Below, one piece after another: positions 5,650 to 36,317 of a stretch of 64,000 bases of DNA. Under the pieces are notes generated by a model that worked only from the letters and a program-made list of their open reading frames with translations, was not told the DNA's origin and ran no database searches. The stretch's first letter is position 1, and each line of letters starts with the position of its first letter. The position numbers and the translations under genes are program-made. Source of the stretch: Sphingobacterium thalpophilum (GTDB lineage: Bacteria; Bacteroidota; Bacteroidia; Sphingobacteriales; Sphingobacteriaceae); the NCBI GenBank assembly GCA_945868825.1, contig CAMBMM010000002.1, positions 242,252-306,251 of the forward strand, read 5' to 3'.

Positions 5650-5667
5650 GGTTTTAAGCTTTTAACA

Positions 5668-5691
5668 CGATTTTTAACACGTCAAAAATCG
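5668..5691 (-). promoter_or_regulatory. Leader hairpin upstream of rplS
   Basis: Perfect 8-base inverted repeat, CGATTTTT and AAAAATCG, around an 8-base loop, 18 nt upstream of the L19 start. Autoregulatory leaders before ribosomal protein genes, including L19 in this phylum, are known. Whether this belongs to one is inference. A weak -7-like element (TAACATTG, 5697-5704) would place the transcript start near the hairpin. Confidence 0.4.
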
Positions 5692-5751
5692 GACTGCAAT
5701 GTTAGGGAATTATTTTGATTTTTAAAAGAGGTTTTAGAAGTTTTCCACATT

Positions 5752-6027
5752 TTATCTCAAAACATTTTTATAGTCCTCCAGTAATTGGGTAATATGCTTA
5801 CAACTAATTCGGGTATTTTGCAGCTCTCCAGCACTTAAACCAAACATTTTTTCCAATTGAACCACCTTTTGGTAGGGAATGTCTTTTCTTTCTCCGGCCT
5901 TTATGTTGCGGTAGTTTAAAAATGTATTGGGCGAAACACCCAATACCAAGGGGATAACCTTCAGTGCATTCTTATAATCTCTCATTGGGAGATTAGACAA
6001 GTTTTCATGAATTAAATATTTATACAT
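5752..6027 (-). CDS. Small helix-turn-helix-like protein
   Basis: 91 aa, not assignable to a named family. The middle, LGVSPNTFLNYRNIKAGE, resembles the recognition helix of Cro/XRE-type DNA-binding proteins, and the following segment IPYQKVVQLEKMFGLSAGEL resembles the closing helices. Divergently placed from the gene at 6165 across a 137-bp very AT-rich gap. It breaks up the trmD-rplS junction of an otherwise conserved operon. A transcription factor role is inferred only. Confidence 0.6.
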   Translation of the reverse strand: MYKYLIHENLSNLPMRDYKNALKVIPLVLGVSPNTFLNYRNIKAGERKDIPYQKVVQLEKMFGLSAGELQNTRISCKHITQLLEDYKNVLR

Positions 6028-6164
6028 AAGAGAAATTTTTATAGATTTAAAGAAAAATTTGTATATTTTATCAAACTATTTAAGGCCTTATAATTCCTTT
6101 AGTAATTATTAAGAATAAAAATAAGCATTACAATTAATATATTATACTTTATACTAAATTTTTT

Positions 6165-19919: not shown

Positions 19920-19929
19920 ACTAGAGGAT

Positions 19930-20214
19930 TTAGTTTTTTAAAGATAAAATAAATTGCTTGGAAAGCTGGGCTATTCTAAAAAGCAAAATGGCTAAGGCTG
20001 GAAATACAAACCAATGTAGGGCTTGAGCTTGTTTAATGTCTCCATGAAAAGCATAGGTTATGGCACGTCCTAGTCCACAACCCGGGCACCACGTAATCCC
20101 GATATTTGCCAATGGACAAAGTGTGAAGTGATTTGCCCCGGGTGTGCTAATGGCCAATAGAATCAGGGCTATAATCCAAAAAAACAACTCAGGGGGTGGT
20201 AGATATTTTTTCAC
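19930..20214 (-). CDS. DUF2752 membrane protein
   Basis: 94 aa with two hydrophobic segments. The family signature is clear: CPLANIGITWCPGCGLGRA. Three conserved cysteines in this loop suggest metal or thiol chemistry but no function is established. First gene of the leftward DUF2752-TM2-Nif3-zinc-ribbon run, divergent from mfd. Confidence 0.88.
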   Translation of the reverse strand: MKKYLPPPELFFWIIALILLAISTPGANHFTLCPLANIGITWCPGCGLGRAITYAFHGDIKQAQALHWFVFPALAILLFRIAQLSKQFILSLKN

Positions 20215-20261
20215 AAATTAAATATACAAACACGTTCCCTATTATTTTAGGCCGCAGGTGC

Positions 20262-20269
20262 TATATTTG
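20262..20269 (+). promoter_or_regulatory. TAnnTTTG element abutting mfd start
   Basis: TATATTTG lies only 2 nt before the mfd ATG. If real, transcription would start at or very near the start codon and the mRNA would be leaderless. Could be chance. Confidence 0.3.
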
Positions 20270-20271
20270 CA

Positions 20272-28954: not shown

Positions 28955-30301
28955 ATGGATGTAATCATTTTGGGTATAGCGGCGCTAGTTTTGGTAGTGG
29001 CTATGATAATATTTGTTAAACGACCTCTATCTGCAGATGGTATTTCTGCAGAAGAGTTTTCTCGATTAAAACAAGAAAACGGGGGTTTGTTGGCCGAGGT
29101 GGCCAGAACCACCGAGCGGGCTGAAAATAGTGCGGCAGAACGCCTGCGCTTGGAGGTTAAATTACTTGAGGTTGAAGCGGATTTAGTAGCTAAAAACGAA
29201 CGGATTGTAAAAGCTGAAGAGGCTTTTAAGTCGCAAAGAGATCGACTAAGTGAGCAGGAGGCCTATATTTTAACCCTACAACAACAGTTTAAATTGGAGT
29301 TTGAAAATATCGCCAATAAGCTATTAGACGAGAAATCGAAAACTTTTACAGAGCATAACCGCACCCAGTTGGATGTGATTTTAAATCCCTTTAAAGAAAA
29401 ATTAAAAAATTTTGAAGAGAAGGTGGATAAAGTATATAAAGCAGAATCGGATGAGCGAAATGTGTTGAAGGGAGAGATTAACAAGCTAGTTGAAAACAAC
29501 CGCTTAATGAGTGAAGAAACCCAAAACCTGACCAAGGCGCTCAAGGGTGACCAGAAAAAACAGGGGAATTGGGGGGAGATGATTTTAGAGAAGGTGTTGG
29601 AGCGCTCGGGCTTGGTTAAAGACCGTGAATACCGAATACAGGCAAGTATGGTTGGCCCTGATGGAAATCGTTTACAGCCCGATGTGGTGATTGATATGCC
29701 TGATGGAAAACACCTTGTTGTGGATTCGAAAGTATCGTTGGTGGCTTATGAGCGTTTAGTAAATTGCGATAGCGATGCTGAGCGGGAAGTATATGCCAAA
29801 GAGCATGTAAAATCGATACAAAACCACATTAATGATTTGTGTGGTAAAAATTACCAGGATTTATATCAGATCAATTCTCCTGACTTTGTGTTATTATTTG
29901 TGCCTATTGAGTCATCGTTTAGTGTAGCGGTGCAGCTGGATGAGGATTTATTTAATTATGCCTGGGATCGCCGGGTGGTTATTGTGAGCCCTTCTACTTT
30001 GCTGGCAACCCTGGGTACTGTGGCTAGTATTTGGAAACAAGAACGTCAGAATAAAAACGTATTAGAAATTGCTCGTTTAAGTGGTGCTATGTATGACAAG
30101 TTTTACAATTTTGTAGAGGATTTAGAAGATATTGGTAAGAGTTTAAAACAAACCGAAAAGGCCTACGACAAAGCCATTAATAAACTATCAACCGGTGCAG
30201 GTAATCTCACTGTAACTGCCGATAAAATTAAAAAACTGGGTGCTAAAGCCAGTAAACAGCTTGATCAAAAATACATCGATGACGAGGAAGAGTCTGTTTA
30301 A
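28955..30301 (+). CDS. rmuC: RmuC-family DNA recombination protein
   Basis: 448 aa. N-terminal membrane helix (1-20), long coiled coil (about 35-190), then the RmuC nuclease-like domain: KKQGNWGEMILEKVLERSGL, DGNRLQPDVVIDMPDGKHLV, VDSKVSLVAYERL, FVPIESSFSVAV. E. coli RmuC limits inversion at short repeats. Stop overlaps the convergent thiL stop by 4 bases. Confidence 0.94.
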   Translation: MDVIILGIAALVLVVAMIIFVKRPLSADGISAEEFSRLKQENGGLLAEVARTTERAENSAAERLRLEVKLLEVEADLVAKNERIVKAEEAFKSQRDRLSEQEAYILTLQQQFKLEFENIANKLLDEKSKTFTEHNRTQLDVILNPFKEKLKNFEEKVDKVYKAESDERNVLKGEINKLVENNRLMSEETQNLTKALKGDQKKQGNWGEMILEKVLERSGLVKDREYRIQASMVGPDGNRLQPDVVIDMPDGKHLVVDSKVSLVAYERLVNCDSDAEREVYAKEHVKSIQNHINDLCGKNYQDLYQINSPDFVLLFVPIESSFSVAVQLDEDLFNYAWDRRVVIVSPSTLLATLGTVASIWKQERQNKNVLEIARLSGAMYDKFYNFVEDLEDIGKSLKQTEKAYDKAINKLSTGAGNLTVTADKIKKLGAKASKQLDQKYIDDEEESV

Positions 30302-31332
30302 AAAGCCTTCCAACCCTGCGCTTTTAATTCGTGCATATTATTTGATTTAGATACCAATTGACAACCTGAGGCGGCATCGGTCATGTGGCCAATAATAGTA
30401 ATATCTGGGCTGTTTTTTACCTTATCGTAATCACCTTGGTTAATGGTGAATAACAACTCGTAATCTTCTCCTCCGTTTAAAGCACAGGTGGTTGGGTCTA
30501 ATCCAAATTCACGAGCGGTATCGTAAGTCATTTGATCTATTGGGATTTTTTCTTCGTACACGTGGCAACCCACATTAGATTGCTTACAAATGTGTTTTAT
30601 TTCAGAGGCTAGGCCATCAGAAATATCAATCATAGCTGTTGGTTTAATCTTATTTTCACGTAAATAATCTATAATATCTTTACGGGCCTCTGGTTTTAAT
30701 TGGCGTTCAATTACATAGTCTTTACCCTCTAAATCGGGTTGAATATTGGGGTTTTCTAAAAAGATTTGTTTTTCACGTTCTAATAATTGTAAACCAATAT
30801 AAGCTCCACCTAAATCACCAGAAACACACAATAAATCACCTTCTTTTGCACCTGATCGGTAAACCACCTGATCTGCATCTATATAACCAATACTAGTTAC
30901 ACTTATTATTAGACCTTGTTTAGAAGCCGAGGTATCACCACCCACCACATCAATATTATATTTTTTACAGGCTAGATAAATACCATCGTAAATTTCTTCT
31001 ACAGCTTCTAAGGGAAATTTACTCGATAAACCTATAGATACTGTAACCTGAGCAGCTATACCATTCATGGCATAAATATCACTGAGGTTTACTTGTACGG
31101 CTTTATAACCCAAGTGTTTGAAAGGAGTATACGCTAAATCGAAATGGATACCTTCTAATAATAAATCGGTTGAAACCACTATTTGTTTCTTACCAGCTGA
31201 TAATATGGCTGCATCATCTCCTACTCCTTTAATGGTGCTTTCTTGAGTGATTTCTATTTTATCTGTTAAATGGGCTATTAATCCAACCTCTCCTAATTGT
31301 GCTAACTCTGTACGCTCGGTATTTTCAAACAT
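30298..31332 (-). CDS. thiL: Thiamine-monophosphate kinase
   Basis: 344 aa. Phosphorylates thiamine phosphate to the diphosphate, the last step of cofactor synthesis. Motifs: KGVGDDAAIL, VSTDLLLEGIHF, DIYAMNG, GGDTSAS, MIDISDGLASE and GGEDYELLF. The promoter-like TAATTTTG lies 22 nt upstream, in the edge of the large AT-rich gap. Confidence 0.96.
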   Translation of the reverse strand: MFENTERTELAQLGEVGLIAHLTDKIEITQESTIKGVGDDAAILSAGKKQIVVSTDLLLEGIHFDLAYTPFKHLGYKAVQVNLSDIYAMNGIAAQVTVSIGLSSKFPLEAVEEIYDGIYLACKKYNIDVVGGDTSASKQGLIISVTSIGYIDADQVVYRSGAKEGDLLCVSGDLGGAYIGLQLLEREKQIFLENPNIQPDLEGKDYVIERQLKPEARKDIIDYLRENKIKPTAMIDISDGLASEIKHICKQSNVGCHVYEEKIPIDQMTYDTAREFGLDPTTCALNGGEDYELLFTINQGDYDKVKNSPDITIIGHMTDAASGCQLVSKSNNMHELKAQGWKAF

Positions 31333-31786
31333 AATTTCTTTTTTTAATATTCTTCAAAATTATCCTTTTATACACACACTAAATAATTACTATTTATTAT
31401 TTATAAAATAAACTATGGTTTATTAAGGTGTTGGTATGGTGTATAATATGGCTGCTATTTATTTCATTTTGTAGTTATACTATTTTTATACACAAATAAC
31501 TATCCAATTTATAGAATAAAACACTTGTAAATAAACAGTTATAAAAAGTATAATTATCAATACACACTATTTTGTTAATAAATTAAGGATGATTTAAAAG
31601 TGAACAACTAGTACAAATTGCTGTATAAAAAGAGTAGAAATTTATAAAAATGAAGTAAACTTTAGCCACTTAGTTAGTACTACTTATTTATCTACATTTT
31701 TTATACCACTTGTTAACAGTAATCCACAGCTTAAACTAGGTTAAAAGAAAGAATCTACTTACCTTGTTCTATTAATAATCCGTTTT
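31333..31786. other. AT-rich gap with DnaA-box-like sites; candidate oriC
   Basis: The only gene-free stretch over 300 bp. Very AT-rich. Exact TTATACACA (consensus TTATNCACA) at 31368-31376 and 31486-31494. Near matches with one change: TTATACACC at 31438-31446 (minus strand), TTATCTACA at 31688-31696, TAATCCACA at 31720-31728. mnmG, a frequent oriC neighbour, and two parS-like sites are 2.3-4.7 kb away. No dnaA, dnaN or parAB is in the window. Gene direction does not switch cleanly here, so the assignment is tentative. Confidence 0.45.
31355..31362 (-). promoter_or_regulatory. Candidate -7 element for thiL
   Basis: TAATTTTG on the minus strand, exact TAnnTTTG, 22 nt before the thiL ATG. Confidence 0.45.
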
Positions 31787-32311
31787 ATGCCTCTAATTTT
31801 ACCTATAAAAGGAATTTTTCCAACTTTTGGTTCCGATTGTTTTATTGCTGAAAACGCAACTATTGTTGGCGATGTAGTGTTAGGTACGCATTGTTCCGTT
31901 TGGTTTAATGCCATTTTACGTGGCGATGTGAATAAAATTAGAATTGGTAATTATACCAATATTCAGGATGGGGTTACGGTTCATTGTACACACGAACAAG
32001 CAGCCACCACTATTGGAAATTATGTATCGTTGGGGCACAACGCTATTATTCACGGCTGCACCATAAGAGATAGGGTACTAGTTGGTATGGGTGCAATTAT
32101 AATGGATCACACCGTGGTGGAAGAGTATTGTATTATTGCAGCGGGCTCTATTGTTTTAGAAAATACGCTTTGTGAATCGGGATATATTTATGCCGGCGCA
32201 CCCGCAAAAAAAATAAAACCCATTAGCGAAACTCAGCGTGCCTTATTAGATCAACTACCAGACAAGTATGTAGTTTATAGCGATTGGTTTAAAAATCCAC
32301 AGGAATTATAA
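31787..32311 (+). CDS. Gamma carbonic anhydrase family protein
   Basis: 174 aa left-handed beta-helix built from hexapeptide repeats (IGNYVSLGHNAIIHG). Metal-ligand histidines in TVHCTH and LGHNAIIHG are present, along with RGDVNKIRIG. Such YrdA/PaaY-type proteins may be carbonic anhydrases or thioesterases. Its end overlaps the convergent lipoprotein gene by 23 bases. Confidence 0.92.
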   Translation: MPLILPIKGIFPTFGSDCFIAENATIVGDVVLGTHCSVWFNAILRGDVNKIRIGNYTNIQDGVTVHCTHEQAATTIGNYVSLGHNAIIHGCTIRDRVLVGMGAIIMDHTVVEEYCIIAAGSIVLENTLCESGYIYAGAPAKKIKPISETQRALLDQLPDKYVVYSDWFKNPQEL

Positions 32312-33896
32312 TCTTTTCCTCTAAATCCCAGTTTGCTCGTAGGCCAATAGTTTTTTCAAAAAACCACACTTTTTCAGGCTGGGTGTTTGTTGCTAAATCT
32401 CCACTATCCCACTTTCCATTTTTATTTTCATCCAATACCACCCGAACACTATATTTTCCAACAGGATAGGTTTTATAGCTTAAAGCACTAGCCCGTGTAA
32501 GAATATTTTCTTTAACAACCACCTTTTGTTCATTTAACAATTGTACTACATACCTTTTACTTGTATCACTTAAACTCACCAACAATCCTAAATTCCCATA
32601 ACTATCTAAACCATCTTGCATAAAAGTTTTAGAAAAAGAGGCATTTTTTAAGCCAGAAATCGCCTTTATAGCTCCTTCAGAAACCTTTATTGTATAATTT
32701 CTTCCCGCCTTAAACGGATATAGTATCGACAGCGACTGGACCAACCCAACCTGTTTTCCAACCTTCCAGCCACTTAGTTTTACCGAATCCGAATACAAGC
32801 TTATTTTGGTGCTATCTATCAGTTCTGCTGGCATGGTAAAAAGCAAGGAGTAACCCAACCCGGGTTTCAATCTGTTCCCCAGGGTATTGTCTTTTATAAC
32901 CGGTGTTCTATTGTATGCCTCTCTTTTGTTTCGGTTAATATTAACCGTATTAATAAGCCCCCCGTCAGAGTATATTCCTAATTTTAAAGAATCATACGTC
33001 AGCTCTGGCGACCAAATCAGAACAGAATCACCTAGTTTACTATATTTTTTGATGCTGTTTTTTAGATAGTCGGTTCCTTCTAACTCTTTTACACTCAATT
33101 CTTTCACAGGCTTATTATAAACCAACAAAAGCCTTCCATCTAGTTCTACTTTCTTTTCTATAACCTTAAAATCTTTTGGCAATTCTTTAAACACCCTAAG
33201 ATCCACACCCGGTGTATTTTTTCCTAATTTAATTTTGGTAGAACTAAAGCCAACCTCATCTACCCCTTGATTGTAAATTTTATCTGCGCCGGTTTCCTTG
33301 AGTGCATATACCGAATATTCATCAGCCCGCAGGTTATTTAACTTATAATTACCCGCATCATCTGTCATGGTATAGGTACTTGGCTTCTTTTTACCCAACA
33401 AACTGTCTTGTTTGTTTGTAAATAAAAACACCATCACATCTTTTAGGGGTTCATTTGTTGTGGCGCTAGTTACTGTCCCGCTAATAGATAGCGAATCGAC
33501 CACACTTCCGCTCGAAAAAACATAACTATAGTTTTTTAGCAAATTATTTTCGTTTACATCGCCAATGGCTTTGCCGAAATTTATGGTGTAGGTGGTGTTG
33601 GGTTCTAGCGTCTGATCTAGCTTTATGCTTAACATCTCTTTGCTTGCTTTGATATCGAGTGGTTTTTCTAGCGAAGGGCTTACTGTAATTTCCGCGAAGG
33701 CATTATTTAATTTTATAAATTCATTAAACGTCAGTTCGATTTCAGAAGCCGAAAAACTCGTGCTTAAATTTTTGGGTTTTTCTTTCACCACCTTCGGCGC
33801 CCCGGCGTCTTTTGGTCCACCGCTCGGCGATTGCATGCTGGCACAACCAGCCAGTGTCCACAACCCAATGCCAAAGCCAGCCCCCAACCACCACAT
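32289..33896 (-). CDS. Lipoprotein with Big_5/SbsA Ig-like domain
   Basis: 535 aa from ATG 33896. Signal with lipobox (LAGC, Cys about 20), then a Ser/Pro/Gly linker. An SbsA Ig-like (Big_5) domain spans about 45-125, with LTFNEFIKLNN and LEPNTTYTINFGKAIGD. Next comes a carboxypeptidase-regulatory-like beta sandwich (ISGTVTSATTNEPLKDVMVF), and the rest is beta-rich. Found widely in Bacteroidota outer membranes; role unknown. An extension to a GTG at 34001 lacks a signal peptide at its start, so the shorter form is preferred. Confidence 0.87.
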   Translation of the reverse strand: MWWLGAGFGIGLWTLAGCASMQSPSGGPKDAGAPKVVKEKPKNLSTSFSASEIELTFNEFIKLNNAFAEITVSPSLEKPLDIKASKEMLSIKLDQTLEPNTTYTINFGKAIGDVNENNLLKNYSYVFSSGSVVDSLSISGTVTSATTNEPLKDVMVFLFTNKQDSLLGKKKPSTYTMTDDAGNYKLNNLRADEYSVYALKETGADKIYNQGVDEVGFSSTKIKLGKNTPGVDLRVFKELPKDFKVIEKKVELDGRLLLVYNKPVKELSVKELEGTDYLKNSIKKYSKLGDSVLIWSPELTYDSLKLGIYSDGGLINTVNINRNKREAYNRTPVIKDNTLGNRLKPGLGYSLLFTMPAELIDSTKISLYSDSVKLSGWKVGKQVGLVQSLSILYPFKAGRNYTIKVSEGAIKAISGLKNASFSKTFMQDGLDSYGNLGLLVSLSDTSKRYVVQLLNEQKVVVKENILTRASALSYKTYPVGKYSVRVVLDENKNGKWDSGDLATNTQPEKVWFFEKTIGLRANWDLEEKIIIPVDF

Positions 33897-34043
33897 TCTT
33901 TTAAAGGCCCCTATCGAGCCGTTGGTTAAAAAAAAATATTTTTTGGAAGAAGTAGTCAAATAATTCTCAAAAGTCCCGCAAATCGCTTTATTTTGTGTCA
34001 CCCAATTTTTTATTTAAATTATTGATAAACAGATACTTAACTA

Positions 34044-35906
34044 TTATTTTGTTAAATGAACCATTAAAACTGAAATATCTGATGGAGAAACCCCCGAAAT
34101 TCTAGAAGCTTGCCCAAGCGTTCTCGGTTTTACCCGAAACAATTTTTCTCTAGCCTCTTTGGAAAGCGAACCCAGAGTTTGGTAATCAAAATTTGGATTA
34201 ATTTCTCGGTCCTCCATTCGCTTCATTTTCTCTACAATTTCCAATTCTTTTTCAAAATAACTTTCGTACTTCACCCGAATTTCTGCTTGTTCAACCACCT
34301 CGTTCGAGTAGCCCTTTAGTTCTTCCTTTAGTCCCGGGTTGGCAGCGCTCAAATCACGAATTCCAATTTGTGGTCTCCCCAACAAGTTTACCAATTTTAC
34401 TTTTTGATTAATGGGTGATGTTCCCAGGGTATCGAGCGCTTCATTTATTTCTTCGGGCTGTACCGATACTTGCGATAGATAAGCCACTAATTTATCGGCT
34501 GCAGCCACCTTGGCGTGTACCCCATCCATGCGCTCATCAGATATTAAACCGAGAGAATGACCAATACCGCTTAAGCGCAGATCGGCGTTATCTTGTCTTA
34601 ACAATAAGCGATGTTCGGCTCTAGAAGTAAACATTCTATAGGGCTCCTCCGTTCCCTTGGTTACGAGGTCGTCTATTAAAACGCCTATATATGATTCTGA
34701 GCGCTTCATAATAATCTCTTGTTTGTCGTAAACGCTATTATGGGCATTAATACCAGCAATAAAACCTTGGCAAGCGGCTTCTTCATAGCCGGTAGTTCCG
34801 TTAATTTGACCAGCAAAAAACAGGTTCTTTACCAACTTGGTTTCTAGTGTAAGCCCAAGCTGCGTTGGCGGAAAATAATCGTACTCTATAGCATAACCCG
34901 GGCGAAACATTTTGGCTTTTTCAAAGCCAGGTATTTGTTGTAAAGCCCGAAATTGCACATCTTCTGGCAGTGACGTAGAAAAGCCATTCACGTAAATTTC
35001 TACCGTATTCCAGCCTTCGGGCTCTACAAATATTTGATGCCGCTCACGTTCCGCAAATCGGTTAATTTTATCTTCTATAGATGGGCAATAACGGGGACCC
35101 AAACCCTTAATACGACCGGTAAACATAGGCGATTTTTCAAAGCCCTCTTTTAGGGTCTCGTGTACCGCCTCGTTGGTATAGGTAATCCAGCAACAGCGTT
35201 GCTCGGTTTGTAAAGGAACGTCTGTATATGAGAAACGACCCCGTTCTTCATCTCCCCATTGTTCCTCCATTTTGCTATAATCCAGCGTACGTCCATCTAC
35301 TCGTGGTGGTGTTCCCGTCTTCATTCTACCTGCTTCAAAACCAAGCGTTATTAACTGTTCGGTAATGCCCGTAGCCGCTTTTTCGCCGGTTCTACCACCA
35401 CCAAAACGCTTTTCTCCTACATGAATTACCCCATTTAAAAACGTACCATTGGTTAAAACCACCGAAGATGCTTCAATCTCTATCCCCAGAGAGGTTATTA
35501 CCCCAGCAACACGCTCACCATCTAACTTTAATCCCACCACGGTATCTTGCCACAGATCTACATTGGGTATTTGTTCTAGTTGCAGGCGCCATTCTTCCGC
35601 GAAACGCATGCGGTCTATTTGTGCTCTAGGGCTCCACATAGCCGGCCCCTTAGATCTATTTAACATTCGGAATTGAATGCTGGTTTTGTCGCTAATAATA
35701 CCAGAGTAGCCGCCCATTGCATCAATCTCTCTCACAATTTGTCCTTTGGCAACCCCTCCCATAGCCGGATTACAGCTCATTTGTGCAATGGTTCCCATAT
35801 TCATGGTTACCAACAACACCGTTGAGCCTAAATTTGCTGCGGCTGCCGCCGCTTCACAGCCCGCATGCCCAGCACCCACCACAATTACATCGTATTTTTT
35901 AAACAT
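34044..35906 (-). CDS. mnmG: tRNA uridine-5-carboxymethylaminomethyl(34) synthase MnmG
   Basis: 620 aa FAD enzyme that with MnmE installs cmnm5 on U34 of tRNAs. Motifs: [18 protein letters not shown] (FAD loop), [48 protein letters not shown] and [17 protein letters not shown]. Commonly near oriC in bacteria. A parS-like site begins 9 nt upstream of its start codon. Confidence 0.97.
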
Positions 35907-35914
35907 ATTCTTTT

Positions 35915-35930
35915 TGTTTCACGTGGAACA
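35915..35930. promoter_or_regulatory. parS-like ParB-binding site 1
   Basis: TGTTTCACGTGGAACA. Its complement is TGTTCCACGTGAAACA, which fits the B. subtilis parS consensus TGTTNCACGTGAAACA exactly. Lies 9 nt before mnmG. Confidence 0.78.
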
Positions 35931-35963
35931 GTACAAAAATAATCAAATTCGTTCGCACGTTTT

Positions 35964-36209
35964 CTATTTCGTTCCACGTGGAACATTTTTAAAAAGCGCA
36001 TATAAACTCACCAATACCCAAACACCCTCCAACACCACAAAGGGGTAAAAAGAAATGAGGTAGGCAGATACGCCACAAAGAGCCGCACCCACCATGTTTA
36101 GCAGGATGTAGCTCACACTATCTACCTGTATTTTTTTAAATAGGATTAATAAGAAAGCCACCAAAAGAAGGCTCACCCCCACTGTACCCAAACTATCCGA
36201 AACACTCAT
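35964..36209 (-). CDS. CBU_0592-like small membrane protein
   Basis: 81 aa with three hydrophobic helices: TVGVSLLLVAFLLILF, YILLNMVGAALCGVSAYLI and VLEGVWVLVSLYALF. The LN-x-x-GA and EG-x-W features resemble the CBU_0592 domain, a paired-helix module of unknown role. Its last codons (NVPRGTK) coincide with the second parS-like site, so that DNA both codes and carries the palindrome. An exact TAnnTTTG lies 19 nt upstream. Confidence 0.72.
   Translation of the reverse strand: MSVSDSLGTVGVSLLLVAFLLILFKKIQVDSVSYILLNMVGAALCGVSAYLISFYPFVVLEGVWVLVSLYALFKNVPRGTK
35970..35985. promoter_or_regulatory. parS-like ParB-binding site 2
   Basis: CGTTCCACGTGGAACA; 15 of 16 bases match the symmetric parS form TGTTCCACGTGGAACA. 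It lies inside the 3-prime end of the membrane-protein gene, 55 bp from site 1. Confidence 0.7.
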
Positions 36210-36228
36210 GATGATTGTATTGTTTGCT

Positions 36229-36236
36229 CAAAAATA
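36229..36236 (-). promoter_or_regulatory. Candidate -7 element for CBU_0592-like gene
   Basis: TATTTTTG on the minus strand, exact TAnnTTTG, 19 nt before the start codon at 36209. Confidence 0.4.
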
Positions 36237-36317
36237 ACGTTAATGTCACAAAACAGAAACCCAAATACAAACAGTCGACACATTTTATGATATTTGTGTG
36301 TTTAAACATCAATAAAC

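Follow-up and report, generated by a model that had tools for sequence, protein, structure and literature searches.

The 454-bp intergenic gap at 31333-31786 is very probably where a small-genome bacterium of the Sphingobacteriaceae has its chromosomal replication origin (oriC). A sequence-only reading had proposed the gap as a candidate origin, and we find this supported by strand skew, by conservation, and by the survival of the element where both of its usual flanking genes are gone, the last being stronger evidence than any that reading offered. The window, the whole stretch of 64 kb analysed, is positions 242252-306251 of contig C2, and all coordinates below are positions in the window unless a contig is named. 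The genome (G000) is 1.66 Mb in four contigs and 99.4% complete. Its family takes in Pedobacter, Mucilaginibacter and Sphingobacterium, and the isolate names of the nearest named MAGs, L094 and L138 (Sphingobacteriaceae/Sphingobacteriales), suggest a freshwater habitat.

The gap and its DnaA-box-like sites

The gap is indeed AT-rich, at 78% AT. On its left is thiL (30298-31332, minus strand), where most relatives have nadA instead, and on its right a gamma-carbonic-anhydrase-like gene (gamma-CA, 31787-32311, plus strand), which in relatives is separated from the element by nadB. Further right are an Ig-like lipoprotein gene (32289-34001, minus strand), whose homologue in Cytophagales adjoins a box-rich gap directly, and mnmG (34044-35906, minus strand), a conserved neighbour of both parS and the element. 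The description of the gap as the only long gene-free one in the window holds when ORFs of at least 60 aa are counted, as it is then the sole internal gap above 234 bp, and fails with ORFs of at least 100 aa, when 5650-6164 (515 bp), 35907-36317 (411 bp) and 19920-20271 (352 bp) are also free of genes. The first of these is 71% AT and includes the 50-100 bp of lowest stability in the window, with small ORFs overlapping it and no box cluster. The repeats in 31333-31786 are just the two exact boxes described below and weak AT-rich inverted repeats, and an Rfam search of 30800-32300 gave no match at E <=1.

We counted as box-like any site with at most one mismatch to TTATNCACA. The gap holds seven such sites against a mean of 1.12 in dinucleotide shuffles, none of the 1000 shuffles reaching seven. 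Among 16,473 sampled 454-bp windows, covering about half of the genome, it has the highest count, and all of those with six or more sites overlap it. Over the entire 64-kb window there are 86 box-like sites where 77.6 are expected, and TTATNCACA occurs 76 times genome-wide against 77 for the backwards control, so that the signal of the gap is one of local clustering and not of abundance. That genome-wide equality is the one point in favour of a chance cluster of boxes and AT-rich DNA in a spacer, with the origin elsewhere, but given the shuffles, the unique maximum among windows and the conservation across the family we regard the probability of this as negligible.

With regard to individual sites, the two exact TTATACACA boxes that had been noted are at 31368-31376 and 31486-31494, both on the plus strand and both unchanged in G001, a close relative; the second is the central site, where relatives have near-consensus boxes. 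Three further sites with one change had also been reported, on both strands. Against TTATACACA there is just one, TTATACACC at 31438 on the minus strand, while against TTATNCACA there are five, which do occupy both strands (31438, 31526 and 31573 on the minus, 31688 and 31720 on the plus). Of these, TTATTTACA (31526-31534) is not conserved in G001, TTATTAACA (31573-31581) is replaced there by an exact box, TTATTCACA, and TTATCTACA (31688-31696) is unchanged. The DnaA-like site TAATCCACA (31720-31728) is part of a right-hand conserved block, TTGTTAACAGTAATCCACAG (31710-31729, plus strand), at the place of which relatives carry AATTAACATCTTT..TTATTAACA. Another exact box, TTATTCACA, is at 31927-31935 on the minus strand, within the neighbouring gene.

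The block with the highest column conservation is TTTATTAAGGTGTTGGTATGGTGTATAA (31419-31446, plus strand), which contains TTATACACC at 31438-31446. From its sequence it appears to be a closely spaced pair of minus-strand DnaA-like boxes, TTATACACC and a weaker one beside it. Its first 17 bp are found with at most two mismatches in 54 of 57 family gaps; since the sampled genome has 19 matches by chance, the 17-bp sequence alone is not specific. The block aligns with TTATTAAGGTGTGGATTTGTGGGTAA in Echinicola L150, and a similar block is aligned in Litoribacter L166.

By nearest-neighbour energies the gap has the lowest stability of any 400 bp in the part of the genome sampled (about half). Its least stable 50 bp, at 31377-31426, are a candidate unwinding element, and 0.02% of the sampled positions in the rest of the genome are less stable than these. 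In the strict form of the DnaA-trio motif there are three trios after the box at 31368, and 20 of 300 shuffles were equally good, no trio being clearly above background.

An element that stays when its neighbours change

In relatives from the same family the homologous gap is 385-530 bp long and 70-81% AT, and separates the divergently oriented nadA and nadB; the gene order following nadA-gap-nadB is gamma-CA, Ig-like lipoprotein, mnmG and parS. Both nad genes are absent from G000, G001 and the partial genome G002, and this branch of the genus has thus probably lost de novo synthesis of NAD from aspartate; other members of the genus (G003-G005) retain nadA and nadB. The element is present in G000 and G001, between thiL and gamma-CA (the G002 contig stops short of it), and has therefore outlasted the two genes. 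We considered thiL as an anchor gene and rejected it, as it is a neighbour of the gap in G000 and G001 only. The useful anchors are mnmG, gamma-CA and nadA/nadB.

There are also rearrangements among relatives that keep the nad genes. In Hufsiella ginkgonis (L092/L098) the nadA-gap-nadB cassette is inverted with respect to other family members examined, and in Sphingobacterium L135, L136 and L137 about 3 kb is inserted between nadA and the element, which still adjoins nadB.

G000 and G001 share 86% identity across the gap, while the fourfold sites of neighbouring genes diverge by 29-44%. Part of this constraint may be due to the promoters of the two flanking genes: in most relatives, as in the window, the gap parts divergent genes, so their promoters must lie in it. 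One could go further and take the whole gap for a bidirectional promoter or regulatory region, with the boxes and AT-richness incidental or regulatory. However the element is kept with nadA and nadB, with thiL and gamma-CA, in inverted form in Hufsiella and in the differing context of the Cytophagales, and so follows no single gene pair; nor would a promoter region explain the box excess or the skew switches described below. We consider it highly unlikely, and retain the origin as our reading of the gap.

Conservation of the boxes in related genomes had been suggested as a check, and it bears the proposal out, the element and its boxes being kept in the 57 family gaps that were aligned and, as judged by profile, in several Cytophagales. 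The family gaps have on average 3.5 box-like sites against 1.0 in shuffles, and 53 of the 57 are above their shuffles. Exact boxes exceed shuffles in 23 of the 57, the boxes of most gaps being near-consensus. The profile was built from the 55 gaps that have both nadA and nadB, with G000 and G001 left out, and it matches the gap in the window at E 3.7e-23, the next match in the sampled part of the same genome being at 0.79. With E 6e-6 to 4e-5 it also matches Echinicola, Litoribacter and Algoriphagus, always at one position some 3 kb downstream of mnmG. Most of 20 outgroup loci, mainly Cytophagales, have an AT-rich gap at this place with 4-21 near boxes, and the outgroup box-rich gap directly adjoins the Ig-like lipoprotein gene.

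We suggest, tentatively and with rather less than even confidence, that a single ancestral oriC module, 2-6 kb from mnmG, is common to Sphingobacteriaceae and Cytophagales and outlasts changes to its flanking genes, whether by insertion, inversion or loss. Its core would be a conserved, close, inverted pair of DnaA boxes (TTATTAAGGTGT.GG..TTGTG.A.AA), an initiation platform undescribed for Bacteroidota.

Strand skew, parS and the place of dnaA

Skew was studied in stretches covering about half of the window's own genome, on four unordered contigs. At fourfold sites the T/A skew, corrected for coding strand, turns from negative to positive at the gap on contig C2, the residual being mostly negative to the left and positive to the right. 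The opposite change, from positive to negative, falls on contig C1 near 560-630 kb and would mark the terminus. The unordered contigs C3 and C4 can be arranged so that the two arms come out about equally long, which is a matter of consistency only. In the single-contig genomes G033 and G054 it is the GC skew residual that turns from negative to positive at the homologous gap, and it reverts near the opposite side. In G020 GC skew fits near the homologous locus only, and the distal arms do not. Skew thus agrees with the proposed origin and does not refute it, the T/A switch falling at the gap in the genome itself and the GC switch at the homologous gap in G033 and G054.

Up to about 16 kb from the gap, GC skew runs opposite to the expected direction. 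We do not accept this inverted local skew as a replication signal, because mnmG and the genes for the Ig-like lipoprotein and RmuC largely share the fourfold bias in G001, G003 and G005, so that it is gene-specific. More generally, fourfold GC skew at 20000-47000 goes against the trend of the genome; this involves the same three genes and others, and is largely common to relatives.

The sequence-only reading had put mnmG about 2.3 kb and two parS-like sites about 4 kb from the gap, with no dnaA nearby, and all three observations stand. The end of mnmG is 2.26 kb away, and the parS-like sites, TGTTTCACGTGGAACA (35915-35930) and CGTTCCACGTGGAACA (35970-35985), are 4.1 kb to the right, immediately upstream of mnmG. 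They are the sole parS matches in the genome with at most one mismatch, and there is one ParB gene. A parS match was found in 43 of 60 genomes, and in most of those having parS it is just upstream of mnmG. G007, G020 and G031 have no match at this threshold genome-wide; G007 and G020 still have the box-rich gap. An ORF for an 81-aa membrane-like protein (35964-36209) overlaps the second parS site, and is conserved in position in many Mucilaginibacter loci.

The parS-bearing gap upstream of mnmG (35907-36317) could itself be thought of as the true origin, with 31333-31786 being a DnaA-binding control region such as a titration site. It contains the parS sites, Ori-Finder predictions in Flavobacteriaceae place oriC in the mnmG-adjacent region (PMC11278836, PMC12843772), and two sites 4 kb apart cannot be separated by skew. 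However its AT content is 63%, it has a single near box and it contains a small ORF that is conserved in relatives, and the box-rich gap of Cytophagales is again about 3 kb downstream of mnmG. We therefore give this alternative a very slim chance, and prefer 31333-31786 as the origin.

The single dnaA gene maps to about 201-202 kb of contig C3, and the DnaA that it encodes has the usual box-reading signature GGRDHSTV. Adjacency of oriC to dnaA, common in many phyla and not required in Bacteroidota, is thus not seen here, and a dnaA gene distant from oriC is usual in Bacteroidetes (PMC4755523). On established knowledge of oriC function, this single DnaA, encoded far off, would bind the box cluster on both strands and as an oligomer open the AT-rich DNA between and beside the boxes. 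Helicase loading would then launch two diverging forks, and ParB bound to the pair of parS sites 4 kb off would see to segregation.

Use of the element and comparison with known origins

Bacteroidota origins are usually away from dnaA, and are thus hard to place in draft genomes. In this case gene loss and conservation across orders delimit the element closely, and the comparative evidence is unusually clean, which makes the case worth reporting. The gene loss amounts to a natural deletion experiment: one lineage lost both adjoining genes and retained the element, so that the origin is narrowed to at most 454 bp. The profile provides a simple oriC marker for drafts of Sphingobacteriaceae, for example in coverage-based estimates of growth rate, and it highlights conserved blocks as targets for mutation in cultured Pedobacter or Mucilaginibacter.

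The closest counterparts are the nadA-nadB intergenic elements of Pedobacter, Mucilaginibacter and Sphingobacterium (L095-L142), which are homologous by profile and position; unlike these loci, the genome of the window has neither nadA nor nadB. In the literature searched there was no paper that calls the nadA-nadB gap the origin. For Mariniflexile (PMC11278836) and Algorimicrobium (PMC12843772) oriC has been predicted beside mnmG by Ori-Finder 2022, and these predictions resemble the present gap in being near mnmG and in having the support of a GC skew plot; in Mariniflexile the position of dnaA is at odds with the skew (PMC11278836). The likeness drawn here is one of position, and in contrast to these mnmG-region predictions the element described here is downstream of mnmG by 2-6 kb, its neighbours across the family being nadA and nadB. 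The oriC of Prevotella intermedia chromosome I (PMC4755523), which belongs to another order and is likened here by description, is also a locus of similar size (about 476 bp) with several DnaA boxes and a skew transition, away from dnaA. The kind of element is thus known, and its location, close to mnmG and distant from dnaA, is in line with the published predictions (PMC11278836, PMC12843772, PMC4755523).
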